A program made the position numbers and the translations under genes. A stretch of 64,000 nt of DNA from Asterias amurensis (lineage: Eukaryota > Echinodermata > Asteroidea > Forcipulatida > Asteriidae), in NCBI RefSeq assembly GCF_032118995.1, contig NC_092663.1, forward strand, positions 5,642,001-5,706,000, given 5' to 3'. Shown here one piece after another: positions 337 through 51,226 of this stretch; within the stretch, counting starts at the first letter, position 1; each line of letters starts with the position of its first letter. The notes under the pieces were generated by a model. The model was given only the letters and a program-made list of their open reading frames with translations. It was not told the origin of the DNA and did no database searches.

Positions 337-3300
337 GCAAGGTGAATATTCTCAGCTATGATTTGATGCATCGTAAAGCACAAGAACTCAAACAATACAG
401 ATTCAAGGTTATCATTATGGTAAGTTATTTGGCTGATAATGTAGCTAGTCCTAAGACCTTTCTCAAACCTCGGCTTGGGCTACGGCTCAAGCTTAAAGAT
501 GCTATGTCAGATTTTTGGCCCCAAACATTAAACAATATATTTTTTTGAGTGAATGGTATTTCAAAGAGTATCACCCACTCTAACGGAAAAAAAAAATAAC
601 TTTTACTTTTAATGGTCAGGAACCATGACAAAAATTTAAAACGATTCTTATAAAACACATAATAATTGGTCATGTGATATATTGTCGGGATCCCGACAAA
701 AACTAAATTTGAGCACTTTATTTCACTGCTACTAATAATTGGCGGACTTTTTCGAGCAATGGCTTAAATGAAAGCTTGTAACTTTCTCGACCCCCATCAA
801 AATACCAATTGAATTTTAAATCAAAATTTTAGGTCAAATCGGCCAAAAATCTGACATAGCATCTTTAAGGCCCGGTCACACAGGCCCTGGTAACGAAACC
901 GAGAATGATCAAAATGCATGCCCTCCATTGGTTGAATGAGCATGGGCATATTCTGCGTGGAGCAATTCAACCAATAGAATGCGTTCTCTTTGCATCATGA
1001 TCGTTATCGTTATCGCTGCAGTATGACTTAGCCTTTAGGCTCCGCGCTGCACATAGTTTATACAATACTGAAATCTTTATTAGTCAAGTAATAATTATAC
1101 CGTCAATGCAACGTCAATGAAACTTAGATTAGCTAGATCAGATGTATTTCTTTTGTGACATGTTCATGGTAATCTTTGTTTCTTCTTGCGATTTACAATT
1201 CAGGATGAGAGCCATTTCCTGAAGAATATAAAAACAGCGAGAACGAAAGCAGCTATACCCCTGATGAAGGTAATTATCTTGCACGTTTCTATCCATTAAG
1301 GAAATTACTGATACAAAAAGAAATTAACTAGAGCGGGATTCAAACCAACAACTTTTTGTATACACACTAAAAACTTGCAAATATCGTGTCTTCCAAACAT
1401 TTCAGTGTAAGGGTAAAATGCAAATGTTATTCTTTATCCGTAAATTTAACTTCTATTTAATTATTATTCATAAATACCCCAGTAGTTTCTCTACTCCTAT
1501 TGGTGGAGAGCGCGTCACAAGGGTGTGCATAAATCTGTTGTTAATGCACACTGGAGCTCTGTTTATGCACACTGAGCTGGCTTCCGCGTGTCGTGCGCGC
1601 AAGATTATCACGCAGAACGCGCAAATCATAACTATCAGAGCATAATCTAAGCGCACGCACGTACACACAACCCACGCGCCTCGAACAGATTCTTCACAAA
1701 GTTTTGAAAAATATTTCAAACCTCGAATTTTCAATTGTTAAAGTGTCTAAAACTGTATTTGTTTACGTTTTTTAACAAAAGGGCATTTATGAATGAAAAT
1801 AAAAGAGTAGTGAATCGTTCTTCAACATGGGTTTAAAACCTTGCAGGGTCGTTGCCGTGCAATAAAGCCCCTAGCCTTTGGCTCGAGCCTTTATCACACG
1901 ACGGCCGACCCTGCTGCTTTTAACGTGCGTTGAAGAACTCATCGCTACCCTTTTATTCCCTTATTAATATTGTATGCGACATTGATATCTCCTGTACTAT
2001 AGACAGCACCCTGTGTCATCTTTGTCATCTTACTATCAGGTACACCTGCCTTTTTATCAAGGCCTTCAGAAGTCTACACTCAGATCCTAGGTGTAGCACC
2101 CAGACTCATATTATTATTGTATTTCACATTGATATCTCCTGTACTTTAGACAGCACCCCGTGTCATCTTACTATCAGGTACACCTGCTTTATCAAGGCCT
2201 TCAGAACTCTACACTCAGATCCTTGGTGTAACACCCAGACTCTTTCCATCATTTCATGAGTTTGGTCTGAGATACTGCAATGCAACTCGGGTAAGGGTAG
2301 AAACCATACAAGGCTGACATATAACCACACCCTTGTGGGACAACCTCATAGTCCTTAATTGACAATATCCTTTTTCGGAGTTAATCAAGTCCCCAAAATG
2401 CTTATTTGTGTCAAAAGAATTAAGTATTGAAATAGTAATGACTTCCCTGCTTGATAGTAATAATAATATCAATCGCTTTAAAGGAACACGTTGCCTTGGA
2501 TCGGTCGAGTTGGTCTTTGAAAAGCGTTTGTAACCGTTTTTTATAAAATGCATATGGGTAGAAAGATGTTGTAAAAGTAGAATACAATGATCCACACAAA
2601 CATGCCTCGAAATTGCGTGGTTTTCCTTTTACCTCGTCGACTAACACGTCGGCCATTTATGGGGGTCAAAATTTTGACTCCCATAAATGGCCGACCATGT
2701 TAGTTCGCACAGTAGAAGGAAAACCACGCAATTTCGAGGCAAACTTGTGTGGATCATTGTATTCTACTTTTAAAACATCTTTCCAACCATATGCATTTTA
2801 TAAAAAACGGTTACAAATGCTTTTGTTTTGACCAACTCGTCCGATCCAAGGCAACGTGTTCCTTTAATACAATGCTTCATGATCAAAGTGCTTTCTTACC
2901 CCTGGTCACAGGGCCATTCATCCATTCCTTAAGCCATCTCAGCTCCCTGTGGAGTATACAGCCTGTGCAACAAATATGCCCTACTAAAACTAAATCAATC
3001 ACAAGAACCATCTCTGCCCACACAGGTACCCATTTACCCCTGGGTGGAGAGAAGCAATTATAGTGAAGTGTCTTGCTCAGGGACACAAGTGTCACAACCG
3101 GGACTCGAACCCACACTGTGCTGAGCAGAATCACCAGAGCTCGAGTTCGGTGCTCTTATCCACTCAGCCGCAACACCCGACGATAATTTATCTATAAAAA
3201 TATTTGGTTTGTTTTGGCTGTTTAGAATCAATGGGGTTGGGATTACTCGGGCTCTTCCAATATGACTGAACTACAACTTCTTTTAGAAGAGTGCATCATG

Positions 3301-6300
3301 ATCCGAAGGTTGAAGCAGGATGTAATGACGGAGCTTCCATCCAAGACTAGACAAATGGTGAGACCACTAGGGACAATCCTTACGCTTACTGTTAGGTAAT
3401 TGTTGCTTACCGAAAGTACAAGCTTTGTATTAGGACATGTTCTTTTGATCATGATCAAACAATGTTGAGACTGTTGTCCATTGGACTCTTGTAAATTACT
3501 TTTCTGTTCCAGACGAACCAATCCAGTTCCAATTGCTTAAAAATTCTGTCTCCTCTTATCTCTTTTTGTGAAGTAATAAGGGAAACATAACAAATAAATA
3601 ACTACAAGGGAAACTGACTGGGTGGATTTTAAACAATGTGAGGGTAGAACAAAGAGAAATTGACTGGAGCAATATTTTAACCAAAAACCTCAGTCAAGCT
3701 TATAAGCACATTTCAGTTTTGCATAAAAACGTGACATAAGATAGAATCCTTTGATATTTGGCAGGTACTCATGGATCCCTCAGTGGTCAAGACTAACAGT
3801 AAAGCACTGAAGAATGCAGCCGATGAAATGGGCAAAAATAAATCGGTGAGTAAAATTGTTAATTTGGTTAACCAGTTAGTTTCGGAGGACGTTGGTTAAC
3901 AAAATAGTATTCTTAATCCCTGATGCAAATTTAACATATATGAAAGGTCTTATCGCATTTTGGTGGTTAAACTAATTTATTCTTTCTTGGGTTTAGAAAT
4001 CTGACGACAGAGGACTTCTTATGAAATATTTTGCCGAGACAGCACTTGTGAAGGTACCGGCCATAAGGTATGCACTCGTCATGTACATGTACATTGTGTC
4101 TCAAACAAATGATACTTCCATCAAACAACGTAACTACATGTTTGCTTTCATTTGTAAACCCAGGATGTCCAATTGAAAACTGACAATTCACATTAGAATA
4201 CAATTTTGTTATGATATTGGTGTGACATAATTCCACCATAATTAAAGGTGATGCACATGTACACCTTTGTTTTTTGGAACCATTGATGATTTAAATCACA
4301 TATAAATGTAGATGTATACAATAACTTTAACATGTACAAATTTAAATTAAAAAGGTAAGTAGGATTTGAAACTTTGCATGGTGGAGATAAGATATAGAAG
4401 AGTTTGCGGTAACACCATGTAATAATCTCTAAATGAGTTGGGATGGTTCTGAAAAGAAAGGTGGTGGCTTTTTAAGATATTGCCGAAAATCCAAAGCAGA
4501 AATGTCCAGGTGTGGAGAATAACTCATAATAGGAAAACATGACCACCTCAAATCATAAAAACTGATATCTTTTGCTGAGATGGCTTAAGGAATGAAAGAA
4601 ATGGCCCGGTGACCATGGGTAATAATTTCTGAGTGTCACTGAGTGACGGATTTGAAGCGCTATCTAAGAAGCCACTACATGTATTATTAATTTTATTATT
4701 AGTGTACAAGAAAGCAGTTTGAAAGTGAATATTTTCTTGCATTTTTTCTTCTCTTAAAGGGACTACGTTCTTGATCTTTTGGAGGGCGGTCACAAGTTTC
4801 TTGTCTTTGCACATCATCAGACTGTCTTGGATGCTCTGTCAACGGCTCTAACCAACAAGGTACGTCAGAAATCCTTGCAAATTATGTGATGTCTCAATGC
4901 AGTCTCCTGTGGTTTAATGAGAGAATATTGAGAATATATCATTAAGGCTGTGTTCATCCAGTGTAGGATGTAGCCCTCCTCATGTTACGCCATTCATTTG
5001 TATTTCTTGCAGTTCTGGTTCATGTTGTTCCTGCATACCCTGATGTCATCTCTCCATCTTCTTCTCTGTCTACCTCTTTTCCTTTTCCCTGTCCTTGGTT
5101 GCCATTCCATTCATCTCTATTCCTTGAGGTTCTTGTCCATACTGTTCCTTCATAAGATCTTATGTCATCTCTCCATCTTCTTCTCTGTCACCTCTTTTCT
5201 TTTTCCCTGTCCTTGGTTGCCATTCCTTTATTCTCGTTGCCATCTATTGTCATTTCTTCGGGCAGTGTGTCCAGCCCATAGAGCGATATATATTGACTAG
5301 AGGGCTAACTTGCTCCTCGTTTTGAAGCCACCCTGAGCGCAGACATGTTTGATGTGTTGCGTGCTACGGAACAATTTTAATTTTAAGAGAACACACATTG
5401 CCGCGATTTTTTTTTTAATTCGGCATGTGCGCTTTCGTACACGACTGCCCATTCGCGCACGTCCGCGCTACGAAAACCGTAAGGTCGACTTGATTGACGT
5501 ATTAAAAAAAGTATACACGCCTTTCAAACATGACGCACATGACGCTCGCAGTTTTGTCTCTCATCAGCAGATTGTGCGTTCACATTTGCTGCATTTTTTG
5601 GTTCGATGACACATAGAAAAGAACAAACGCACTATCATGCAAATAGCTGTAGAATTGCCGTACAAAATTTCAAGCTTTTGTGTTGGTTTGTACATTAACA
5701 TGGATGCACCCACATGGCTTCAAAACCTTAGTGCATGTATAATGGAGTGTTAGCACTCTAGTCAATATATATAGCTTAATGGTCCAGCCCGTCTCCATTT
5801 GGGTTGTTTTATTGTCCTTATGATGTCTCTTACTCTAGTTTTCTTTCAAATTTCTGCTCATTTAATCCTGTCTCTGATTGAGACATGTAGCATTGAAAAT
5901 ACAAATCCAAGTTCTTGTGTTTCACAGAAGTATGATTTCATCCGTATCGATGGTAGTACCTCAGCGTTACAGCGTAAGGCGAACTGCGACAAGTTCCAGC
6001 AAGAGGATTCTTGTCGAGCTGCCATCCTGTCTATCACAGCAGCCAATGCTGGTCTCACATTGACCTCAGCTAGCACAGTGGTGTTTGCTGAACTCTTCTG
6101 GAATCCCGGGGTAAGTTTGGTTCAATCAACAGCTACAATTATGAAGATCTGCAGGCATTATATTCTTCCTACTAAAGTCTGTTTCTGGTTTTTTTTTGGC
6201 CCTACAAGAAATCTGAAAAAATGTGATTAAAGGAACGTTACAGAATTGGTTTTGCTAACAAAACAGTTGCTGGCAGTAAAAGAACTTTATGTAATCCACC

Positions 6301-10359: not shown

Positions 10360-13300
10360 CTAGAAGATGACTTGGGGTCGAAGGTGAGGCTGGAACTTGT
10401 TGGCTTTGACAGCAAGATGAAGATCTTTTCTTGATCGGTATTTCTGGACAAAGCGCATATCTCGAATCCTTCTGCTTGCTGCCTCTCCTGTCAGGAAATA
10501 CAATCAAGGAGATTAACCAATGTCAGGAAAAAACAATAATTCATTTGTTTGTGCTTTGAACTGATAGTAATTCCATCAACCCCAAATGGTACTCTCGTGC
10601 AAGAACTAGTGTTCTGTTCAAGAGCTTACTTTAGATTGACACAAATACATTGACTAGAAGGAAGTCCAAATTGGCAGGAACATATAAAAATGTCACTGGT
10701 CATTCCAAATAGTTCATAGTTCATAGTTCAATGAACCAAAATAAAACAAAGCTTTCCAAAAAAACATGTATTTTTTACTATTGTAATATCCATCTTAACA
10801 TATTTTTTATGAACCTTGCGCATAATGAATAAATTTGTTGTGTAACGCATGTAAAAGAACTCGATGCAAAAAGAGAAGGGGTTCGCCCCGGTGTTCCCTG
10901 CTGTGGCTGCTACGTGTGCCATGGCACCTTTAGAACCCTTACAAGGTGCTACATAATTGGGTCTCAGATTTCATAACTTCAATAACCTATCTTTCTGTAT
11001 AAATGTATATGCTATTAAGCACCTTGAGTAAATTGTTGGCAGATACGTAGGCTATATAAGACTATGATATTATTTTTTGGTTTGTACTGCGCCTTGAATA
11101 TGTGCGCATTACTTTATTATTATTCAAGCCCCCCTGGATGTTCTTTAGGGTGAACCCACTATTTACCTTTATTTCCACTCCATCCCAGTGCTTTATACTG
11201 CGTCATTATTCTGCCAATCACTTCACTGTTTCTCTTGACTATCTGGCGAGTGGCTGGAATATTCTGTCTGAAGTAGCGCTGGAGTTCTCTGTGTCCAATA
11301 CGAGAACCTGGTGATCAAAAAATAAGTAGTAATTGTGTCAACTTATCATATCATTCAAACAAATTGGTCACCAATATCACAACAGGAACACCATTCAAAA
11401 GTGAACATGAAATCAGCAATGCAGATCTTCATACAATACAGTTGCATGGTAAATTCCCCAAACAGCATGGATTTCTGATTAAAAACGGAGCAAGCACATC
11501 CCTGACAACCTTGTGTTATATTGTGTTTTACAGCTAAGTTCTAAAGTACAGTATACTCTGTGTACCTGATGGTAGGACCAATTCAAATCCATCTTGTTGG
11601 AGTTGCAACGCACTTTAACTATAGTTTGATTTGTGTACCTGATGGTAGGACCAATTCAAATCCATCTTGTTGGAGTTGCAATGCACTTTAAATATAGTTT
11701 AGTTTGTGTACCTGATGGTAGGACCAATTCAAATCCATCTTGTTGGAGTTGCAATGCACTTTAAATATAGTTTAGTTTGTGTACCTGAAGGTAGAACCAA
11801 TTCAAATCCATCTCGTTTGAGTTGCAATGCACTTTAAAGTATAGTTTAGTTTGTGTACCTGAAAGTAGAACCAATTCAAATCCATCTTGTTGGAGTTGCA
11901 ATGCACTTTAAGTATAGTTTAGTTTGTGTACCTGAAGGTAGAACCAATTCAAATCCATCTTGTTTGAGTTGCAATGCACTTCAAGTATAGTTTAGTTTGT
12001 GTACCTGAAGGTAGAACCAATTCAAATCCATCTTGTTGGAGTTGCAATGCACTTTAAATATAGTTTAGATTGAGTACCTGAAGGTAGAACCAATTCAAAT
12101 CCATCTTGTTGGAGTTGCAACGCACTTTAAGTATAGTTTAGTTTGTGTACCTGATGGTAGGACCAATTCAAATCCATCTTGTTGGAGTTGCAACACACTT
12201 TAAGTATAGTTTAGTTTGTGTACCTGATGGTAGGACCAATTCAAATCCATCTTGTTGGAGTTGCAATGCACTTTAAATATAGTTTAGTTTGTGTACCTGA
12301 AGGTAGAACCAATTCAAATCCATCTTGTTGGAGTTGCAATGCACTTTAAATATAGTTTAGTTTGTTTACCTGATGGTAGGACCAATTCAAATCCATCTTG
12401 TTGGAGTTGCAATGCACTTTCATCTACTTCATCGTCACTATCAGCTTCTTCTGTATCACCTGATGTAACACGATCTGCACTGTCAGGGTAGCTCTTTCTG
12501 TCAACAATTTGGAAATTTGATGTGTAAAGCGGTGTTCCCATTGGACTTTTTCCACCACGTGGGAAGTAAATGACTGGCTTCGGTAAGTTGACAGGGATGT
12601 CAGTCTACCGTGCGTCCCCATTGGGTTTAATTTTTTTGTCATTCTACAGAAAAGTCGCGGTACTTTAACGCTAAGAGAAAGGGGTTCATCCTGTGATCCT
12701 GGCAGTGGCTGCTGATTGCACCCTAGCCTTTTTAAACCCCTATACGGTGCAACACAATTGGGTTTCAGTATTCATAACTTCAATAACCTATCTTTCTGAA
12801 AAAATGTTTACACTAAGCGCCTTGAGTACCTTGTTGGTAGATAGTGTGATATAAGATTTTCGATATAATAAACCAATGTTTACCTGAAGTCAAAGAACTC
12901 TGCGTATTCATAGATCATATCTCCCTCATACTGTAGCTTACAATGACCTTTATCTCTCATATGTCTCTGTACTGCATCCAGTGAGAAGAATGAGCGTCCC
13001 TTTTCATTACACCATAGACACATGAAACCACAGCCAACCTTCTCACCTGTAGCAAATCAAAATCAATCCAAACATTCATCAAACTGCTCTAACAATCTCA
13101 TCAGTTTATATGTGGTTACATTAGCATGGTGCTCTGATGAACCATCCTTTGTTGAAATGTGCCTCACCAGATAAAAAGTATGATTACGGTTGAAAATGGC
13201 TAATTATCGTTCTCAAGGCGTTTGGTGTATATGTGATATCTACTAAGATACTACAAATAACTTAACTCATTTTCTGGCCTGAAGTCTTTTTCAGATTCAA

Positions 13301-15468
13301 ATATTTCAGTGAGAAATTACCTATACATGTACATGTATATTTGGTGTGCGGTAACACCATGTGTGTGTGTGTGTGTTTACATGCCAGGTAGAGTTTGTTC
13401 TTTCGAGAATTGTCTTGCTGTGAAAATTACCTCTTTCTTAAATTACTTTACTCCAAAGGGAGCTGTTTCTCACAATGTTTTATACACCATCAACAGCTCT
13501 CCTTTGCTCGTTACAAAGCAAGTTTTTATGTTTTTGTGCGCATTACAAGTCTTATTATTATTATTATTATTATTATTAATAGCAATTATTTTGAGAAATT
13601 TACCAATTATGTCCAGTGCTTTTATATACAAAGACCTGTTGTTTCTACCATTGAAGACTTACCAAGATATGCAAGTAATCCTTCTAGGTCGACCAAAAAC
13701 TCTACATTGGGAAGGAAGAAACTGTGAGACTGTGTCATGTGTTTGCAGTTGTTCACAACAGACCTAGATGAGTGACTACAAAATAGACAATCTGTGACAG
13801 AGATTGGTTCTCCTTCAATCTCCTCCCATTCTCCATCTTCCTCATCGGCCATTTCTGAAGAAAGAAAATCATCAAGTTTAAAGGAACATACAGAACTGGT
13901 AAGAAACAAAATCAAGCAATCATTCCAGTCTTCTACTTGAGCAGCTCTACCTGTCTTTAAGTCAGCAGCAGGTTTAAACTACATTGCGCTGGATAGAAAA
14001 TGTCACAAAGTGGAGTGATAAAAGCATAGGAGAGCTAAAGAAGAGCAGCGTTGAGACCAGGTGATAGGGGCGACTCCAGGAGTGCACCCTGTTACAATTT
14101 GAGGACGAGGCGGCCACGGACTTAAGTCTTTGTCAAATGACTTTGCCATTGCAGAGTACCATGGAGTAATTGGGTAGTAGCTAAAATATTTAAACACTGT
14201 TTGTTTGATGCCTCGATGATTGGTACACCCTAAGGGCCAAAACATGGAATAAACAACAATAAAGACCTAAAAATTTGTATAATACTGAAAGTAAAGTTTT
14301 TTCCCCTATAAACTGTGAACTGTAAAGCGTAAGTACCTTTTAAGTATTAACCCTTTGGTGCACAGATTAATTTAATTTAAAAAAAAAAGACAAGAGCTCA
14401 ACACTCGCTCTAAACAATCAAACATGAGGGCGGTATATTTGACGTGTTTTTGATGGTCGCTAGCGACCGCCAATGTGCACCAAAGGGTTAACTAATTTTG
14501 AAATCTACTAGCACCAAAGTATTCCTGGATTAACTTGAGTGTTGCATATCGACCCCATCCATTCAAATGGTTACAGCACCAATCCTTACCCACGTCCTGA
14601 CTTGAGCTAGCACCCATTGGTTGACTCTGTATCTTTCCACCAATGGACTTTTCTTCCGTCTTCTTGCTCTTGTCAACAGAGGGCCCAACTACTTTATTAT
14701 CTCCAGCTGCAACTGTTTCTCCAGTTTTTGAGGTTAACTCATCTTCAAGTCCTTTCTCACGATTTTTCTCATTTCTCTTTTCAACCTACAACAAGGTAAA
14801 GAAACAAATGCACTATTGCTTGTAAGTGTTCTCCAAAACAATTTTCAGACAGTCTGAGATTGCAAATCAGCAAGTAAATAGTAGGCCTTTTATAATTCAG
14901 GCTTGGAAAGTTTTGGTTGTGTAGTACAACCGAAAGCACCACCGAGGCCTAGGCCTCCAGTGCCACTTAGTCTTGCTCTTGGCGCCCTTAAAAAACTCAT
15001 TGACTTTGTGTAAACACAATCATTTTGACAAATGAAACAATTAACAACTTTTCTTTATAAATTAGTAAGCTTTTCCAAATTAAAAAGCAATGTCAATTAT
15101 TTCAGAATACTTTATCACCAATACCAGAACAATAAGAACTGACAAACCTCCGCCTGAAGTTGCCTTGCAATACGAGCCTCAGTTTCCTTGTGTTTCTTGG
15201 ACTGCATGTGATTAGTAAACGCATTCCCTGTGTTGAAATGTTTACTGCAAACCTTGCAGATTGTGGAAGAGTCCTGAGGGGCGTCTGTCGTCTGTGCCTG
15301 TTTGTCCAAGACACGCTGTTTGAACTCCTCAGCTGTGACGGCAACCATCTCTGCCAGCTTGCGTTTCAAGTTGTATCGGTGCCAATCAGATTTGTAGTGC
15401 GCCCTTTGGAGGTCAGCATTAGCGAATGCCACGCGGCATGAAATACACGTGTACGATGGAGAAGACAT
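10360..15468 (-). CDS. ZNF622: ZNF622/Rei1-like 60S ribosomal maturation zinc-finger protein (7 exons)
   Basis: Exons in transcript order: 15468-15148 (ATG), 14785-14590, 13854-13663, 13046-12884, 12497-12370, 11307-11167, 10487-10360 (stop). All phases match, giving 422 residues against roughly 480 in human. The family is a cytoplasmic factor acting late in 60S subunit maturation; yeast Rei1 recycles the export factor Arx1. Four C2H2 fingers are readable: C8/C11/H24/H30, C71/C74/H87/H93, C195/C198/H211/H216, and C246/C249/H265/H271, the last with the family signature CLWCNEKG. An acidic segment (DEEDGEWEEIEGE) precedes finger 3. The C-terminal part holds GHRELQRYFRQ and the basic end LRPQVIF. 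The intron after exon 5 carries a tandem array of exon 5's own 3' end. The first exon faces RPL37A across about 5 kb of transposons. Confidence 0.95.
10870..11100 (+). repeat. Dispersed SINE-like repeat (also 12670-12860 and 60050-60230)
   Basis: Shared blocks are a CCCCGGTGTT or related start, GGCTGCT, a run ending CCCTTACAAGGTGC, TTCATAACTTCAATAACCTA and a tail with GCACCTTGAGTA and CTATATAAGA. The three copies keep the same order with 15-30% differences judged by eye. No transposase or reverse transcriptase is present. Confidence 0.55.
11560..12369 (-). repeat. 73-bp tandem array of a ZNF622 exon end plus splice donor
   Basis: Eleven intronic units, with a spacing of about 73 bp, are copies of the last roughly 56 bases of ZNF622 exon 5 (12370-12497) together with its GT donor and about 20 bp of intron. 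On the coding strand each reads GCATTGCAACTCCAACAAGA, then GGATTTGAATTGGT, then CTACCTTCAG or CTACCATCAG, then GTACAC. The authentic exon end is unit 12, with donor GTAAAC. Units vary at a few positions. Each unit therefore carries an apparently usable 5' splice site. Confidence 0.95.
12670..12860 (+). repeat. Dispersed SINE-like repeat, copy 2
   Basis: It matches 10870-11100 in order: GGCAGTGGCTGCTGATTGCA, CCCCTATACGGTGCAACACA, TTCATAACTTCAATAACCTA, GCGCCTTGAGTACCTTG. It lies in the ZNF622 intron between 12497 and 12884. Confidence 0.55.
14351..14487. mobile_element. piggyBac-type MITE, 137 bp
   Basis: The termini CCCTTTGGTGCACA and TGTGCACCAAAGGG are perfect inverted repeats, flanked by TTAA on both sides (14347-14350 and 14488-14491). 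TTAA target duplication with CCC-starting termini is the piggyBac hallmark. It lies in the ZNF622 intron between exons 2 and 3. Confidence 0.8.
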
Positions 15469-16397: not shown

Positions 16398-17420
16398 GAC
16401 TAGCTGGATCCAAACATAAAATAACAAACCTGTAAAAATTTGGCCTTGCTTGGGCGCAATTTGAATTGGTGAATAAAGTTTTGCAAGAGAAAAATGAGTA
16501 TTGAAAGAAGAAAAACCAATTTTTGCACAACTTTCTCTGCTTTTGCTCAGCCAAAAAAAAAAATTACAAAGTAAAGTCTCTGGAGTCTGAGTCATGTAAC
16601 ACTACCCACTACTAGTGAAAACAACACTGATGACTGAACATTTGCTGAACTGAGACCTGAGTGAAACAGATAATACATTACATACTCACTGGCATTAATA
16701 TTTTATTTAGTTTAGCATTGTTTAGGGTAGTAAAAACCCGAATAAATATAGGATTATATTCAGTATTACCTCGTTTCAAAAGATGTATCGAAGTAGGCAA
16801 TGCAATACACGGCTTTGGGGCTTCCTAAGAATGTCCTAAACTAGTCAAATTGCTGAACAAAATCTCACTTTCCGCTGTGCTGGGTGTCGATTCTCAGTCG
16901 TGATGCATGTCATGTGTGTTGTGCAATGTTATTTAGAATTGTCCCAACTGCCAACTTGAGCGTTACAGACGGCCCAACTATAGTTGGATCCAGAGATCTG
17001 TAACCAACATGAACCAAACTAGTCTTAGTGGAAGAGTTGTCACAATTTTACCGATCTCACAACACGACCGCTCAACCACTCTCGACTACTCCACGCCTTT
17101 CGCAGAGCGTTCGTGAGTGATAGCGCCCTCCACGTTGGGAAAATTTTGACAAATTAGCACGAGACAAGACTAGTTGGTTATTTTCGGTTATTTTAGACGT
17201 CCCAACTGTAACGCTCAAGTTGGGACTATGGCGTGTCAAACGTTGCATTATTCGATAATGTACAATATATGTGCGATGTTTCTCATATATATGCGATAAT
17301 TGTCACATATGTGCGATATTCATTTGATGTATGCAATAAATGTAATATATATGCAATAAATGTAATATATATGCAATAAATGTAATATATATGCAATAAA
17401 TGTAATATATATGCAATAAA

Positions 17421-17560
17421 TTGTAATATATGTGCGATAAATTGTAATATATGTGCGATAAATTGTAATATATGTGCGATAAATTGTAATATATGTGCGA
17501 TAAATTGTAATATATGTGCGATAAATTGTAATATATGTGCGATAAATTGTAATATATGTG
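17421..17560. repeat. 21-bp tandem array, left arm
   Basis: The unit TTGTAATATATGTGCGATAA plus A is repeated about 6 times. It is preceded by about 5 units of a 20-bp variant (TGTAATATATATGCAATAAA) at 17338-17420. The mirrored array at 19819-20035 has about 10 units. Confidence 0.9.
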
Positions 17561-18326
17561 CAATAATTTGCAATATATGTGCGATAATTTGCGAAATATA
17601 TGCGATAATTTTTAATATATGTTTGATAATTTTGTAGTATATTGTATGCGATCATTTGTATGCGATGTTTTGTGACGGTATACATATGCGATAATTTAAT
17701 ATACATGTGCGATGTTCGTTCTTATATATGTGCGAAAACGGAATTGTGGGATATAGTATGGCTTCCTGTCCACTTGGTCCCCGTATCCGTAATGTTTTAG
17801 ATCGGGCCAGACTATACTCTGGACGGTATAGTATGGTTCCTATGGTTCAATGAGATTGGCGTAGGGTTTATAGTGATGGTCAGGGTACGAGACTCGAGCA
17901 GCGTATTTCCGAAATAGCCAGCCAGCCGCGTATTCGGATAATAGAACACATACAGTACAGGGAGGTGACAAAATGTTGCATTTTGCTCAAATCTGAAGGT
18001 GAAGATCTGTTTTACTCGAACGAATTCTGCAATATTAGCATAATTTAGAATTTTTAATTGATAATATGTCAATTTCATAGCTTCACATGATTAAAAAATA
18101 ATTTATAAAAAGTGAAAAACATTAACAAAACGTCAAAAAATGACCCGCAAACAAAAAGGCAAAAATTTTTATTTTGTATTTTTTGCATTTTTTAATATGT
18201 CAAAAAAACATCACTGTGAAATACAAAACCATAACTTGAAAAGAATTTATACCCTTCGTTAAAACAAAACATTTAATTTGTAATCCAGAACTTTCAAGAC
18301 TAATATAGTGGGCGTATCAAATTTTG

Positions 18327-19041
18327 GAGCTGGGTAAATTTGGTTCACTATCTAGTGGTTAATTAACCACAGTTATTCTGACGCCATTGTCAATGTACAT
18401 TCCGCCCAATTACATAGACGGTGGACTTAAACACAATTTGAAAAGAATTTGAACCCTTCGTTAAGACAAAAAGTTGCTTTCTTGTTCCAGAATCTTGAAG
18501 GAAGATAGACTGGACGTATCAAATTTTGAGCTGGCTAAATTGGTCAACTATTATTGATTCTGCAATAAAAGAAAATGTTTAAAGAAAATGTTTAAAGAAA
18601 ATGTTTGTCTTATCGAAGGGTGTCACCACCTTTTGCTCGCGGCTGACATAACTATAAATGTGGTGACTAAGATTCAAAAAATTTGAAAAATGATTTTGCA
18701 AACAAGACACAGTTGAATTTTTATAGCACAAGAACTTTTAAATTTTATTGACAACAATTAAAAATAATCAATCATGAGTGTTTCAGATATAGCTCGGTAA
18801 TTTACTAACTTTAACTGTTCTACAATTTAAAGTCACCTGGAAATAGAAGTGTTTTTCTTTCAAACATAAGAGTATATGCTAACGAACAATAAAACAATTT
18901 ATTTAGTAATTGATAAGACAAACATTTTCTTTTTATTGCAGAATCAATAATAGTTGACCAATTTAGCCAGCTCAAAATTTGGTGACACCCTTCGATAAGA
19001 CAAACATTTTCTTTAAACATTTTCTTTAAACATTTTCTTTT
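18327..19041. repeat. Rearranged core of the palindrome
   Basis: Between the arms, 18547-18640 (TTCTGCAATAAAAGAAAATG, triple AAAGAAAATGTTT, GTCTTATCGAAGGGTGTCAC) is inverted at 18910-19035, but with its blocks in a different order and partly duplicated. The segment at 18421-18540 is a diverged direct repeat of the arm end at 18235-18330. The pattern implies earlier nested events. Confidence 0.65.
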
Positions 19042-20597
19042 CAAAATTTGATACGCCCACTATATTAGTCTTGAAAGTTCTGGATTACAAATTAAATGTT
19101 TTGTTTTAACGAAGGGTATAAATTCTTTTCAAGTTATGGTTTTGTATTTCACAGTGATGTTTTTTTGACATATTAAAAAATGCAAAAAATACAAAATAAA
19201 AATTTTTGCCTTTTTGTTTGCGGGTCATTTTTTGACGTTTTGTTAATGTTTTTCACTTTTTATAAATTATTTTTTAATCATGTGAAGCTATGAAATTGAC
19301 ATATTATCAATTAAAAATTCTAAATTATGCTAATATTGCAGAATTCGTTCGAGTAAAACAGATCTTCACCTTCAGATTTGAGCAAAATGCAACATTTTGT
19401 CACCTCCCTGTACTGTATGTGTTCTATTATCCGAATACGCGGCTGGCTGGCTATTTCGGAAATACGCTGCTCGAGTCTCGTACCCTGACCATCACTATAA
19501 ACCCTACGCCAATCTCATTGAACCATAGGAACCATACTATACCGTCCAGAGTATAGTCTGGCCCGATCTAAAACATTACGGATACGGGGACCAAGTGGAC
19601 AGGAAGCCATACTATATCCCACAATTCCGTTTTCGCACATATATAAGAACGAACATCGCACATGTATATTAAATTATCGCATATGTATACCGTCACAAAA
19701 CATCGCATACAAATGATCGCATACAATATACTACAAAATTATCAAACATATATTAAAAATTATCGCATATATATTGCAAATTATCGCACATATATTGCAA
19801 ATTATTGCACATATATTACAATTTATCGCACGTATATTACAATTTATCGCACGTATATTACAATTTATCGCACATATATTACAATTTATCGCACATATAT
19901 TACAATTTATCGCACATATATTACAATTTATCGCACATATATTACAATTTATCGCACATATATTACAATTTATCGCACATATATTACAATTTATCGCACA
20001 TATATTACAATTTATCGCACATATATTACAATTTATTGCATATATATTACATTTATTGCATATATATTACATTTATTGCATATATATTACATTTATTGCA
20101 TATATATTACATTTATTGCATACATCAAATGAATATCGCACATATGTGACAATTATCGCATATATATGAGAAACATCGCACATATATTGTACATTATCGA
20201 ATAATGCAACGTTTGACACGCCATATGGGACAGCCTAACTACAGTTGGGACATAACCGGATCCGCACAGTACACACACAGAGCAGACACATAGCTCTAGT
20301 CTTTGGGCCGGTGTACGATGTACCCACACACGCATCACGAAGAATCTCGTTTTAACACCCCTTCTTTAAATATATAGACCCATTTTATCATAAATTTAAA
20401 AGCCAAAATGAGTACGAATATAATCTTAGTTTGAAACATAATCTGTGGATATTGAATAATTCATAAAAAAATCTAGTATATTGATCCTTATATAGTTATA
20501 AAGTAGTAAATGATGTTTTTTTCAACAGCACAGAATACTCCATTTTTCTTATAGGGATCGTCGTTCCAACATTCGACCTATGACCTTATTACCCATC

Positions 20598-27065: not shown

Positions 27066-30000
27066 TTATTCCTTTTTACCACTGAGCCAAGATGTAAGAA
27101 AGCCAATACCATAACCACTTTTACTTCTAGTCTTTCCTTCATCTTTTTTCTCCTCCCCGGACACCTTCCCTTCTTCCAATTCTTCCCTGTCCAACATTTC
27201 AAACTCGGCACTATCAGAATCCATAGTGACAAGTTTTGGTCGTTTAGCTGACTCGGTACCTGAGGCGTAATGAGATGCTTGTCTTTGCTGCTGTTGTGAC
27301 TCTTGAGATGGTTCTGAAGCTGACGAGACTTCATCCTGAGACCCAAACTCTTGAAGCTTGGTCAGGGCGTCTGTCATTAGAGACTTGACTGTATGAGAAA
27401 GGAGCATGGCAGCTGCAGGTGGAAGAGACACAGGGGATGGCTTGTCTGCCTCTAGACTCTGTCCACTAGAGCTGCCTTCAACATCAGGGAACTCTAAATC
27501 ACCCACCAGGAGCTCCTCGTTATCATTTTCACTGGACTCTCGGAAATGCGTGGGATCAAACTTGATGGAGTCGGAGGACTCTGGTGTTATGTTCTCCTCT
27601 TCTACACTTGATTTTGAAGGAGCTGGTGGTTCATTATCATAAGGTAGATCTATTTCAAGTTCATCAGCACTCTGATCAAAGGCTGTGTTGTCAAAGGACG
27701 GCACTTGTGAAAGACCACCCATGTAGCTTGCAGGCTCAGTGTCCGTAAATTCTGTAAGTTTCAGAGTAAATTTTTCATGTTTAGTCAAAGTCAAACTGGA
27801 ATCCAATACATAGATTTCAGACAGTGTTAGAGCCTCTTACATTCCAGTATTTTGTTGTATCTAAAATATATAACAATATAAACCACAAGGGAAACTGACT
27901 GGGTAAATTTTGAAATGATTTTTGGGGTTGAACAAAGAATTGACTATTGATATCTGAAACAAAAAGTCGCATCCCCTTAAGGTGATCCCCTGGCTGCCGC
28001 TTCCCAGGTTGTATCAGATATTGGGTGTGATCCCTGGCTACACGGCAGTTAACGGTTGTATGGCTTCTGACTGGCACCCCCAAACAAAGATATTGACAAA
28101 ATAGGGACACCGCCAATATAGGGCTAGATAGCTCAGTTGGTAGCGCGCCGGCACGTTAATCCGGAGGTCGTTGGTTCGAATCCCACTCTAGTCAATTCTT
28201 TGTTCAACCCCAAAAATCATTTCAAAATTTACCCAGTCAGTTTCCCTTGTGGTTTATATTGATATCTGAAACAAAAAGTTGCATCCCCTTAAGGTGATCC
28301 CCTGGCTGCCGCTTCCCAGGTTGTATCGTAATTTGGGTGTGATCCCTGGCTACACGGCAGTTAACGGTTGTATGGCTTCTGACTGGCACCCCCGAACAAA
28401 GATATTGACAAAATAGGGACACCGCCAATATAGGGCTAGATAGCTCAGTTGGTAGAGCGCCGGCACCTTAACCCAGAGGTCGTTGGTTCGAATCCCACTC
28501 TAGTCAATTCTTTGTTCAACCCCTAAAATATATAACGGTAGACAATCTAAAAGTTCAAGCTCAGATTGGTACTTTAAAAATAAAGTCGCATCCCCTTAAT
28601 ACGATCCCCTGGCTGCTGCTTCCCAGGTTGTATCATAAATTTGGACATGCTCCCTGGCTACTTAACAGTAAGCTTGGGCGATATCTTGATATAATCGAAA
28701 ATCGTGATACCATTTCTTAAACGCTTACCATATCGTCTTGATTTTTTGTTAATCGAATTATCGGCATATCGTGGTTTTGATGAAGTATCACGATGTCTTC
28801 CCTAATTGAGACGTCTTGCAACCACAACGGGCTGTTTAAAAAAATATATAAAGTCCAAGAACCAACCCCAAGATTCCCCAATTGAAAAAAATAACATCAA
28901 ACACTTTAGGCCCAGGCGGTCTCCCACAGACACTTCAGAAGTAACACAATGTATCAATTACCACCCCTGTGTGGGAGCCTTGTGCGCCTTGCCGCCGAAC
29001 TGCAGACCACAATGGGATCATATTACACAAACCACAACCCATCCACAACCGTTTTATGAATGAGAGGTCACCCCATGCGCATCATGGATGCTTTTTGGTT
29101 AGCTAACCAACATAGGCCTGGATAGCTCAGTTGGTAGAGCGCTGGTACTTTAATCTGGAGGTTTGTTCAAGTCCTGATCCAGTCAAGTTTGCTTTGTTCA
29201 CCCCAAAACATTATTTATTTTAGCCTTAAAGCCTTACCATCATCCGTGTTTAAATCCAGTGACATGCCTTTCGACATGTTAGAGAGACCACTGAATATCC
29301 CAGATGATCTAGGTGTGTATCTGCCTGCAGTAGCAGCATGGGCTAATGCAGCATCTACTGATGGGCCTGGTGAGGGACAGAATTCATCCAAGTCACTATC
29401 ACTACTGCTATCGATGTTATCGCTGGAATTAGCCCTAGCTCTTGCTGATCTCTGTTGGGCTGGAAGGAACAAAACAATCAGGAAATTAATGTCAACCTAC
29501 CAATAAAGCCCCGTTCATGCGAATGCAATTTTACGTCACATAAATTATTTGCATCAAATAATTCACATCAGTTGACATGTGCTCAACTCTTTCAAAACAT
29601 TCACCGCTGACAAAATTAACTTGTATCATATGGACTAACTCTTAGGTTAAGTGAGCAGAGAAAGTGTGCAACACTCTGGAGAGAATGAATTCATGTACAT
29701 GTACTTGGAAAATGTGCTTACATCTGAGCTTTTTCTCCCTACGTGGGCTGTCAATGCTGTGATCCAACTGCTGTAGTATAGGTTCTATACGCTGGTAAAG
29801 ACGACCACTGATGTTGTGATATTCTAAAGCTGGCCACAGCAAAAGACCAGTAACTATAACAAACATAAAGGAAATGAAAAGTGGTTACAAAAACAATGTC
29901 AACAACTGTTAGGTTAATCAAGAATTGGATAATCACATCCTCAAAATAATGGTAGTTTTACATAATGAAATACCTCTAGCTGAGTTTTGATCTAATGGTG

Positions 30001-33000
30001 ATGAGGCACTGGGTGGATTTCACAAAGAGTTAAAACTAGTCTTATCTCGACTTAGGACGAGTTTGTCTTAACTTAGGACTAGCCTTACATTTCCTATGAT
30101 ATCTCCTAGGACTAGTCCTAAGGTAGGACTAGTCCAAACTCTTTGTGAAATCGACCCCAGAATTACACGTTTGGTAATTGTCAAAGACCAGTATTCTCAC
30201 TCGGTGTATCCCAACAAATGCATTAAATAACAAGCCTGTGAAAATTTGTACTCAAATTTATTTGAGATTCAAACTATCAGTTTTGTTTTGGGTTAAGTTC
30301 TATTTGGTTTTTCAGTCCACACTTTAAGTGTAAATGTGGAACCACTGTAGTAATGTACCAATAGAGCTACAACATCCTGTTTGTATTGGTGAGCTAGCTG
30401 TAAGGATAGAGACTTACCCATGATGAATGATATAAGAGTTCCTGAGATCTGATGGCCGATGGCTGCTAGTGTTAAACATAAACCACACACGTACAAGCAA
30501 AACTGTAGGGGAAAAATTTGGTTTACAAAAAGTAAAAGTAAATTCGCAAGACAAATACACATTTAAGTCCACAATTGGAAAACGTGTACAAAACCAATGG
30601 GAGCTCTGTTGCAAAAAAGTTAGTATTAACAAAAGAGGGACAATGGGAGGAGTTCCACTGTTGCAGGTGTATACAAACTTGTGTGTGAGTTGTAGTATTC
30701 AAAGATTAGTGGACTCTAGAAAGACATCATGACTGTATTATTTACATGACTCTATAATATAAATAACATCAAATTGATGAGTATCCTCTAGATGAACAAT
30801 TTCCATGCAAATTTCCCTAGGCCCCAATTGAAATTGGACCAATTTTCTCTTTCTTGATTTATCAACATTTATATGAACAAATTTAAACTAAAAAAAAAAA
30901 AAATTAAAAAAATTTGAAGAACAAACTTCCATCAAAATAATGTTTGCTGAACTTATTGAGGAGAGCATTTTCAGCATAATATTTTTCTTCAAATGATGTG
31001 TATTGAAATGATGACTTCAAACAAAATATAAATCAATTATACCCTGCAAGATATGTTAACAAAAATTTTACCACACAGGCGAAGTAGGATTCTACACTAC
31101 TCATTGACCTCTGTGCTTTCTGCTCTACTCCATATAGTACTGTACAAAACCAGTGATTGCTAAAACCAACGGAGGGCTAGGTAGGGCGCCCTCTGCCTTT
31201 TTAATCATGGATCATTATAATGTGTTTGCAGAATTGAATAGCATGATTTTTTATGACGAAAGTGTCAGAGAATGCTACTCCATGCTAAAGCATAGGGACA
31301 GAATCCTACACAATGTTAAAGCAATAGGACCAGAATCTACACAGTGCTAAAGCATAGGGGAAGAATCCTACACAATGCTGAAACATAGAGGAATAATCCT
31401 ACACAGTGCTGAAGCATAGGGACAGAATCCTACACAGTGCTAAAGCATAGGGCCAGAATCCTACTCAATGCTAAAGCATAGGGCCAGAATCCTACACAGT
31501 GCTAAAGCATAGGGCCAGAATCCTACTCAATGCTAAAGCATAGGGCCAGAATCCTACTCAATGCTAAAGCATAGGGCCAGAATCCTACTCAATGCTAAAG
31601 CATAGGGCCAGAATCCTACTCAATGCTAAAGCATAGGGCCAGAATCCTACTCAATGCTAAAGCATAGGGCCAGAATCCTACACAGTGCTAAAGCATAGGG
31701 CCAGAATCCTACTCAGTGCTAAAGCATAGGGCCAGAATCCTACTCTATAGCATAGGGCCAGAATCCTACTCAATGCTAAAGCATAGGGACAGAATCCTAC
31801 AGAGTGCTAAAGCATACGGCCAGAATCCTACTCAATGCTAAAGCATAGGGCCAGAATCCTACTCAATGCTAAAGCATAGGGCCAGAATCCTACTCAATGC
31901 TAAAGCATAGGGCCAGAATCCTACTCAATGCTAAAGCATAGGGCCAGAATCCTACTCAATGCTAAAGCATAGGGACAGAATCCTACAGAGTGCTAAAGCA
32001 TAGGGCCAGAATCCTACTCAATGCTAAAGCATAGGGCCAGAATCCTACTCAATGCTAAAGCATAGGGCCAGAATCCTACTCAATGCTAAAGCATAGGGCC
32101 AGAATCCTACTCAATGCTATAGCATAGGGCCAGAATCCTACTCAATGCTAAAGCATAGGGCCAGAATCCTACACAGTGCTAAAGCATAGGGCCAGAATCC
32201 TACTCAATGCTAAAGCATAGGGCCAGAATCCTACTCAATGCTAAAGCATAGGGCCAGAATCCTACTCAATGCTAAAGCATAGGGACAGAATCCTACAGAG
32301 TGCTAAAGCATACGGCCAGAATCCTACTCAATGCTAAAGCATAGGGCCAGAATCCTACTCAATGCTAAAGCATAGGGCCAGAATCCTACTCAATGCTAAA
32401 GCATAGGGCCAGAATCCTACTCAATGCTAAAGCATAGGGCCAGAATCCTACTCAATGCTAAAGCATAGGGACAGAATCCTACAGAGTGCTAAAGCATAGG
32501 GCCAGAATCCTACTCAATGCTAAAGCATAGGGCCAGAATCCTACTCAATGCTAAAGCATAGGGCCAGAATCCTACTCAATGCTAAAGCATAGGGCCAGAA
32601 TCCTACTCAATGCTATAGCATAGGGCCAGAATCCTACTCAATGCTAAAGCATAGGGCCAGAATCCTACTCAATGCTATAGCATAGGGCCAGAATCCTACT
32701 CAATGCTAAAGCATAGGGCCAGAATCCTACACAGTGCTAAAGCATAGGGCCAGAATCCTACTCAATGCTAAAGCATAGGGCCAGAATCCTACTCAATGCT
32801 AAAGCATAGGGCCAGAATCCTACACAGTGCTAAAGCATAGGGCCAGAATCCTACTCAGTGCTAAAGCATAGGGCCAGAATCCTACTCAATGCTATAGCAT
32901 AGGGCCAGAATCCTACTCAATGCTAAAGCATAGGGCCAGAATCCTACTCAATGCTAAAGCATAGGGCCAGAATCCTACTCAATGCTATAGCATAGGGCCA

Positions 33001-36000
33001 GAATCCTACTCAATGCTAAAGCATAGGGCCAGAATCCTACTCAATGCTAAAGCATAGGGACAGAATCCTACTCAATGCTAAAGCATAGGGCCAGAATCCT
33101 ACTCAATGATTAAGCATAGGGCCAGAATCCTACTCAATGCTAAAGCATAGGGACAGAATCCTACACAGTGCTAAAGCATAGGGCCAGAATAAAGCATTAA
33201 AGAGGAAGAACCTTAATCAATGCAATGCAAAATAAAGTTGACAAAATTAATTCAATTTAGTATAAAACAGGTTTATTAAAAAAATCCATCGCAATTACAC
33301 AACTGAGTTCCACATATTAATGTCAAATAATCACATAAAAAACAAATATAAAGGTCGCGTTTAACCATAGAGCTATACATACTGAATAATAATAATAATA
33401 ATAATAATCTACATTTACATGTATATAGCGCTAACTTGCTCTGTGTTTTGAAGCCACCCTGGGCACAGACATGTTTGATGTGTTGCATGACTATGACAAG
33501 ATTTTAATTCACATTGACTTTTTTTTTTTTAATTCGGCGTGTGCGCTTTCGTACGCAACTGCCCATTAGCGTCTGTCTGCGCTACAAAAACTTAAAATAG
33601 TAAACATGCCTTTTAAACATGACGCAAATGACGCTCGCAGTTTGGACGCTCATCAGCAGATTGTGCGTTTACATTTGCTGCACGTTTTGGTTCGATGACA
33701 CATAGAAAATAACAAATGCACTATCATGCAAATAGCCGTACAATTGCCGTACAAAATATCAAGCTTTTTTGTATTCGTTTGTACATGAACATTTGATGCG
33801 CCGACACGGCTTCAAAACTTTAATGCGTGTATAATGGGGTGTTAGCGCTCTGGTCACATCAATATATATAGCTACAGTATATTCATTTAACAGAAACCTG
33901 TCATAATAATAGAAAGTGCTTCCAACTTTAAAATTGTTTTGAACTTAAACCTTTTTCTTGTGAGAAAATTGTCTGACCAAGGTCCTATTATGGGTGAGCA
34001 TTCATTGCTCACTCAAAGTTATGTATCCCAAAAACCGTTTTTGTGTGAAAATGTATTGAACATTTTAAACAACAATATTTCAAAACTCAAATTTTAAACG
34101 GTCAAAGTGTCTGTAATTGTATTTTTGTAATGTTTTTTAACAAAAGGGCATTCATGATTCGGAATAAAAAAGTAGTGACTCATTCTTAAATGTCCGTTTA
34201 AACCTTGCAGGGTCATTGCCATGCGCTCAAGACCCTCGCCCAAGCCGATCACACGTAACAACCTGTCGCTACCCTTTTATTCCCATATTAAAGGCACTGA
34301 ACACTATTGGTAATTAACTTGGTAACAGGTTACGGTGAGCTGTTGATAGTATAAAACATTGTGAGAAATGGCTCCCTCTGAAATAACGTAGTTTGTGAGA
34401 AGGACAAAAATTTCTCACTCAAATATTTGATTGAATTCAAGCTCGAATTTTGCATCTGAAAGCACATAACTTGAGCAACAAGGGTGTTTTATCCTCCAAT
34501 ATACTCTCGCAACTTCAACGACCGAATGAATCAAATTTTCACAGGTTTGTTTTGTGTGCATTATGTTGACATACACCAAGTGAGAAGACTGGTTACCAAA
34601 GGTGTCCAGTGCCTTTAAAAGTTACATTGAATGTTTTTGCATGCTTTATTATTATTATTTTCAACCATGACATTTGGTCATTGATATCAACATCCAAATA
34701 ATATAAAAATGGTCTAGTAGTAGCTAGGAAACTGTTTCATGTAACATACATTATAGTATAATGGACTATCATTATTTAAAGGCAGTGGAGACTATTGGTA
34801 ATTGTCAAAGACTAGCCTTCACAGTTGGTGTATCTCAACATATGCATAAAATAACAAACCTTTTTTTCTCAAAAACTAAGGCACATCAGAGGAAGCCGTT
34901 TCTCACCTTGTTTTATACTATCAACCTCTCCCCATTACTCGCCACCAAGAAAGGTTTTATGCTAATCATTATTTTGAGTAATTATCCAATAGTGTGCACT
35001 GCCTTTAAATAATAATAATAATAGTAATAATAAGACTTAAAATGCGCACATATCCACCCTGCTGGGTGTTCAAGGCGCATAATATGATTGAGTTTTTTAA
35101 ACGCGTTTTACATAAGTACAAAATAAACATTTTTTAACATTAACTGCAACTTGAACATACTGTATTTTGTAGTATTCATGTCAAAAGTAACATTTTGACA
35201 TGGGTATGTGATTTTTGTATACTTTTGTTGTTTTCCCCAAATATGAAATGAGGTTTCTGTCCCACAATATTTAAAATCTGTAGAGACTATGCAGTGTGCA
35301 TGAGAACTTTTACTGACAACTGGTCTGATACTCTCGTGTACCACCAGGGGGACTGTAGCCTTCATTGCTTCATAGATCCGCATTCAAAATGACTGGAAGG
35401 TTTGACCAGCCTGCAAATATCCCCTTCCAGGCGCTTCGAATCACGGCTCTACCAAACTAGTGTCTAAGCCACGAAGGCCTTGACAAAAGGCTAGTGGGGC
35501 GGAGGAGTAGTTGCATTATTTCATGGTAGTCCAGTACTGCTTGAAGGTTGATTTCTACATTTATACCTGCAGTTGGATATAATAAAGGGAAAAAATGGGT
35601 GAATGAATGAATGAGTGGATAGATAGACGGATGAGTGCATGTAACTCAGAAATAAAATATCAAAATTTTTGTTATTTATTAATTTAAATATTTATTTGCT
35701 TATCTAATTTCTGATTTATTGATTATTTGTTTATTAATTGATCGGTTGTTTTGATTGCTTTATTCATATTTAATCATCCTTTTATTGATGTAAAGGTATG
35801 TATGTTGGAAAAGGAGTTAGTTTGATTAACTTTTCGTTGCTTGCGTTGTTATTTTATCAATTTGTCTGTTTATTTATTGACCTATTTTTTTGTTTATCCA
35901 TCCATATTTTGATTTATTTGTTGCTATATTTCTTGTTACATGTACCTTTCCAACTATTTATTCATTTACTTATTGTTACTTTTTGTTTACATTGTTTTGA

Positions 36001-51144: not shown

Positions 51145-51226
<82 letters not shown>

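Follow-up and report, generated by a model that had tools for sequence, protein, structure and literature searches.

The window analysed here, 64,000 nucleotides of the Asterias amurensis genome, contains an intact ZNF622 gene on its minus strand (10360..15468). The spliced model has seven exons (15468-15148, 14785-14590, 13854-13663, 13046-12884, 12497-12370, 11307-11167 and 10487-10360), is open throughout, encodes 422 amino acids and has one terminal stop. The model matches human ZNF622 (6lqm, E 3.3e-113), REI1/REH1 chains match it at E 1.9e-50 to 1.5e-46, and a Pfam search places three zinc-finger domains in the protein. Exon 5 (12370..12497, minus strand) is 128 nt long and is followed by the donor CAG/GTAAAC (12364..12369, minus strand; a slash marks the splice border). 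Intron 5 (11308..12369, minus strand) is 1062 nt long, of which 826 nt are a tandem array and 236 nt are not. It ends at the acceptor CACCAG/GT of exon 6 (11167..11307, minus strand). Introns 6 and 4 of the gene hold a pair of 86-bp segments (10929-11014 and 12730-12815) that are 83% identical and are perhaps a dispersed element.

The array consists of eleven head-to-tail copies that open intron 5, with the real exon end as unit 1. Each unit joins the last 51 nt of exon 5 to the first 22 nt of the intron, including the GT donor. The whole minisatellite of twelve units occupies 11544..12420 on the minus strand, and neighbouring units are 73 nt apart in ten cases and 74 nt in one. Tandem Repeats Finder, run on the window, reports 11559-12420, with a period of 73, 11.8 copies, 95% matches and a score of 1498. 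An earlier note on this DNA, made from the letters alone, had recognized ZNF622, its exon 5, the donor, an origin at the exon-intron boundary and eleven extra copies of 73 bp in the intron. The gene model and the alignment of units bear all of this out, except that copy 7 is 74 bp long. The copied part of the exon, put by that note at about 56 bases, measures 51 nt, and the array, though real, has its units running from 12420 to 11544 and not over the span first given.

On the minus strand, and counting away from the exon, the copies lie at 12275..12347 (copy 1), 12202..12274 (copy 2), 12129..12201 (copy 3), 12056..12128 (copy 4), 11983..12055 (copy 5), 11910..11982 (copy 6), 11836..11909 (copy 7), 11763..11835 (copy 8), 11690..11762 (copy 9), 11617..11689 (copy 10) and 11544..11616 (copy 11, the outer edge unit). 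CAG/GTAC is retained in all eleven, as GTACTC in copy 4 and as GTACAC in the other ten. The earlier note had allowed each copy either GTAC or GTAA, but GTAA occurs only at the real exon. It had also taken the peptide to be kept in every unit. The peptide SALQLQQDGFELVLPS is exact in seven of the eleven copies and altered in four: A to V in copy 3, Q to K in copy 6, P to L in copy 7 and QQ to KR in copy 8. Likewise, the AAAG that was said to precede each copied segment is present in ten copies and reads GAAG in copy 6. A 47-nt segment does stand before the donor in every copy and would shift the frame, as had been proposed.

No two of the twelve units are identical in sequence. Pairwise identity among them averages 93.7%, with a minimum of 86.3%. 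Diversity is lower in the exon part (0.048) than in the intron part (0.096), and the two values are 0.048 and 0.070 when the outermost unit is excluded; the intron part of that unit is the most divergent, with 5 of its 22 positions off the consensus. A 33-base probe for the copy-to-copy junction, allowed up to 3 mismatches, finds 9 matches in the window and none in 100 shuffles. The array stretch as a whole matches one place in the 491.5-Mb genome in a DNA search that scores the best candidates only, and an Rfam search of the window gave no match at the array and three tRNA matches elsewhere. We considered and rejected a dispersed repeat, given the single matching place in the genome, in a search that skips very common words and scores the best candidates.

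The window holds other repeats. At 17264-20188 there is a long palindrome-like structure in which 21-bp arrays and identical open frames are mirrored on the two strands. Tandem Repeats Finder reports a 31-bp unit repeated about 62 times at 31269-33190 (93% matches), and a TTATTG hexanucleotide array of about 180 copies (99%) occupies 51150-52232. A set of 42-bp repeats (60857-61326) lies in a long open frame on the minus strand (60603-61574) and encodes a 14-residue repeat around QDTTTQDTTDEHNK; the frame has no Pfam match at E 0.01. Two Rfam tRNA matches, at 28122-28194 and 28434-28506, sit on a 312-bp tandem duplication. The wider genome has 23 contigs, the last of them a 16,427-bp mitochondrion. 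At sites such as STNHKDIG in COX1, where Asn is conserved, the echinoderm code yields Asn and the invertebrate code Lys; lancelets use a different code, and an amphioxus source was rejected on the mitochondrial code. Two COX1 copies on contig C5 (658874-660214 and 675294-676634) are 16,420 bp apart. This spacing is about one mitochondrial genome length, and the pair is either a tandem mitochondrial DNA insert or a misassembly.

Judged by its sequence, the ZNF622 array is a mirage, that is, a minisatellite that spans the boundary of exon 5 and intron 5 and was made by tandem duplication. The repeat junction couples intronic ...TTTA to exonic AAGTGC, and the outermost unit continues into unduplicated intron (TTTAGAAC). 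Both features fit an array that started with a single tandem duplication of a segment straddling the boundary and then expanded. The later growth probably came by unequal exchange, slippage or gene conversion. We infer these modes of growth from the interspersion of linked variants along the array and from the outermost unit, which diverges most. One linked variant, GTC/CCA, is found in the real exon and in copies 2, 3, 9, 10 and 11, and the other, GTT/CCT, in copies 1, 4, 5, 6 and 8, as well as in copy 7 with one more change. The mean distance of the outer edge unit is 7.4 differences, compared with 4.0 among the other eleven units. Homogenization between nearest neighbours among the twelve units was not significant (permutation p 0.21).

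Within the 48-nt coding part of the copies, synonymous change is not in excess (three of seven variable sites, compared with 23% expected; p 0.20). We see, therefore, no sign of selection on the coding content of the copies, and a selected coding repeat was rejected on this ground. Donor position +4 is A in the real exon and C in every copy. If the outer unit retains the ancestral donor, then the real exon would have gained its +4 A by one substitution. As read from its sequence, the array is in all likelihood a neutral passenger, and its length may vary.

Repeats of this kind are known from amphioxus, and the original amphioxus Adh paper is reportedly that of Canestro in 2002. Amphioxus mirages are described in Adh3 and in the globins BflGb6 and BflGb9 (PMC3087553), and further cases in the lancelet genes PGBD5 and TnC (PMC3902484). 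As in these genes, the tandem duplication in ZNF622 spans an exon-intron boundary and has produced many units with splice signals; unlike them, it lies in an echinoderm and not a cephalochordate, and in another gene. The Adh3 mirage has units of 10-72 bp and the ZNF622 unit is 73 bp. In BflGb9 it is the 3' boundary of exon 2 that is duplicated (PMC3087553, PMC3902484). Amphioxus mirages vary in length between haplotypes, and their edge units escape homogenization (PMC3087553). The divergent outer unit of ZNF622 is in keeping with such an exclusion, but homogenization between neighbouring units there was not significant. BflGb6 has 6 and 3 repeat units in two haplotypes, whereas the 11 extra copies in ZNF622 come from one haploid assembly. 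The amphioxus mirages are reported not to disturb splicing (PMC3087553, PMC3902484), though mirage repeats, it is also noted, could act as cryptic sites and give rise to alternative transcripts (PMC3087553).

There is also a human parallel. The 31-bp VNTR of CBS, c.1444_1467+7(16_21), has single-base variants among its units (PMC2630376), and we take it to span a donor because its name gives 24 coding and 7 intron bases per unit. The CBS repeat resembles the ZNF622 array in spanning a donor, in its high copy number and in its unit variants, and differs from it in being vertebrate, in its shorter unit and in a copy number shown to vary among people. Tandem repeats at exon-intron boundaries have been described in recent human paralogs as well (PMC2812944). 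The Rogers model of intron gain by tandem duplication of an AG/GT segment (cited in PMC3087553 and PMC2812944) likewise involves a duplication that carries splice signals; in contrast to that model, the ZNF622 duplication sits in an existing intron, and a new intron or exon is not evident. Our search of open-licence literature found no earlier report of boundary arrays in echinoderms. Within that literature, what is new is the presence of the mirage phenomenon in an echinoderm, the kind being already known from lancelets.

How the array behaves in splicing can be predicted in part from its splice signals. Donors were scored with human donor frequencies, a matrix not built for starfish. On this matrix the real donor reaches 7.55, whereas the copies stand 3.35-3.61 bits lower, at 4.20 (ten of them) and 3.94 (one). 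Elsewhere in exon 5 and the array, four GT sites also beat the copy donors: a GT at 12459 within exon 5 (6.82) and three AAAGTG sites (6.02, 5.66 and 5.66). The spliceosome probably picks the exon-proximal donor, which outscores the other eleven, and splices from it to the exon 6 acceptor at 11308; the whole array would thereby leave with the intron. Our preferred reading, to which we give a probability of roughly 0.8, is that the mirage formed by duplication of the boundary, is removed in one piece through use of the first donor, and is neutral.

Use of a copy donor would have clear consequences. Exon 5 would grow by 73-804 nt, and for all eleven copy donors the computed frame runs into a stop at codon 352, which precedes the last exon junction by 158-889 nt. 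A stop well upstream of the last exon junction is the standard signal for decay, and such transcripts are thus expected to be targets of nonsense-mediated decay. The AAAG sites, proposed in the earlier note as possible acceptors, are indeed there in ten copies but appear weak. By a crude pyrimidine count, the putative sites in the copies are preceded by 44-56% pyrimidines, compared with 56-81% at the six real acceptors of the gene. The best copies, at 56%, equal the weakest real acceptor of ZNF622, that of exon 5 itself.

We looked for boundary arrays in other genes of the same genome, using Pfam kinase and ABC domains to locate exons. The survey covered 68 loci (L005-L072) with 70 exon matches, of which 67 are distinct, three pairs (L026/L035, L031/L036 and L033/L037) being the same places taken twice. 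The kinase rows are part of 136 reported kinase matches, and some long single-exon kinase frames and some ABC rows with stops were kept in. By a scripted rule, one of the 67 matches has clear copies of the exon with its donor in the neighbouring intron. This is L044 (C18:4339268-4344501, minus strand), whose two-exon peptide has CDK11B as its best solved-structure match (E 1.3e-63). This CDK11-like locus has two boundary arrays, at 2001-2586 and 2944-3301 of the locus. An exon ending ...RAPELLLGIK/GTACGA is followed by four copies at a spacing of 118-120 nt; the first retains a strong donor, AAG/GTAAGA, whereas in the other three, which can be aligned over just 79 nt, the donor is gone. Behind the donor of the preceding exon, TCG/GTAAGC, come five TTG/GTAAGC donors; 49 nt separate the first from it, and the others follow at intervals of 63-64 nt. 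This second, 64-bp array contains only a few copied exon bases. Copied and real donors score 7.73 and 7.52 in one case, and 10.85 and 7.51 in the other, on the human matrix. L044 contradicts a rule that copied donors must be weak, and donor strength alone thus does not explain why copies would be ignored.

The rule also flagged L051, where a lone 33-bp exon copy does not include the boundary; at 2415-2447 of that locus, a stretch 88% identical to part of the kinase exon sits in the intron before that exon, at a distance of 124 nt upstream. At 3735-4390 of L050, an array of 7.7 copies of 85 bp begins just inside the intron that follows a kinase exon ending EYAEG, and its copied donors are not intact. 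The second array of L044 and the array of L050 were found by reading, outside the scripted rule. Near-boundary matches at L031/L036 were interpreted as a dispersed repeat and left out of the count. The survey is small and covers two families, and thus no rate is to be drawn from it.

Could the array instead interfere with splicing, as the earlier note suggested? On the sequence features, a role in alternative splicing or as a decoy for U1 is possible. In its strongest form, the eleven copy donors would compete for U1 and produce stop-containing transcripts, and array length would tune the level of ZNF622. All eleven copies do keep CAG/GTA, which fits the U1 consensus at six positions in a row, and the use of any one of them would reach the stop at codon 352. 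Lievers in 2001 reportedly associated the human CBS repeat with reduced CBS activity, and that 31-bp repeat, with 16-21 copies, also spans a donor (PMC2630376). However, the copies lie downstream of a donor that is stronger by 3.35-3.61 bits on the human matrix, they also score below the four further GT sites named above, and the amphioxus arrays are reported without disturbance of splicing (PMC3087553, PMC3902484). Twelve GT donors exist, as the earlier note had said, but the competition that it envisaged among them agrees poorly with the lead of the real donor, and we consider this explanation unlikely. A broader version seems to us quite unlikely: boundary minisatellites would be recurrent in starfish (ZNF622 and the two CDK11-like donor arrays) and shared with amphioxus, and would serve as decoy donors of variable length, with slipped transcripts gaining a stop and decaying, array length setting gene dose, and the +4 A of the real ZNF622 donor being a compensating substitution by which the first donor stays ahead of its copies. 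The touching ranges of real and putative acceptors, together with the other unused GT sites that outscore the copies, slightly lower our confidence in the neutral reading.

Recruitment of the copies as exons appears less probable still. Copied units might be recruited later, as modelled for the amphioxus globins (PMC3087553), and each holds a nearly intact coding piece and a donor; but their acceptors look weak and a 47-nt unit is out of frame. We find in the sequence no sign that duplicated splice signals flank a new intron or exon, and consider it very unlikely that the array marks the beginning of intron gain or exon creation. That 47-nt exons, running from AAAG to a copied donor, are already included in some transcripts is extremely unlikely in our judgement. 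The segment is present in all eleven copies, the distance to the real donor is 99 nt or more for copies 2 to 11, and the best copies equal the weakest real acceptor at 56% pyrimidines. Against this, the crude count gives 44-56% before the putative sites and 56-81% before real ones, copy 1 would require an intron of 26 nt, and inclusion would lead to a stop after residue 371. An equally faint prospect is that the array is an artefact of assembly, a false expansion of one exon end. Tandem arrays can be misassembled, and this has been reported of an amphioxus mirage in a draft genome (PMC3087553). The A. amurensis assembly was built from PacBio HiFi and Hi-C data into 22 chromosomes, with fragments of about 15 kb that far exceed the 0.88-kb array (PMC10625585), and all twelve units are distinct; these two facts make an artefact unlikely.

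We conclude that the ZNF622 array is probably harmless to its gene. It nevertheless offers a natural test of how the spliceosome chooses among twelve near-identical donors. It also extends to an echinoderm a type of repeat that has been described in lancelets and that has a human parallel in CBS. More generally, boundary arrays are candidates for the raw material from which new introns and exons arise, and they are a possible source of length polymorphism at the splice sites of starfish genes.
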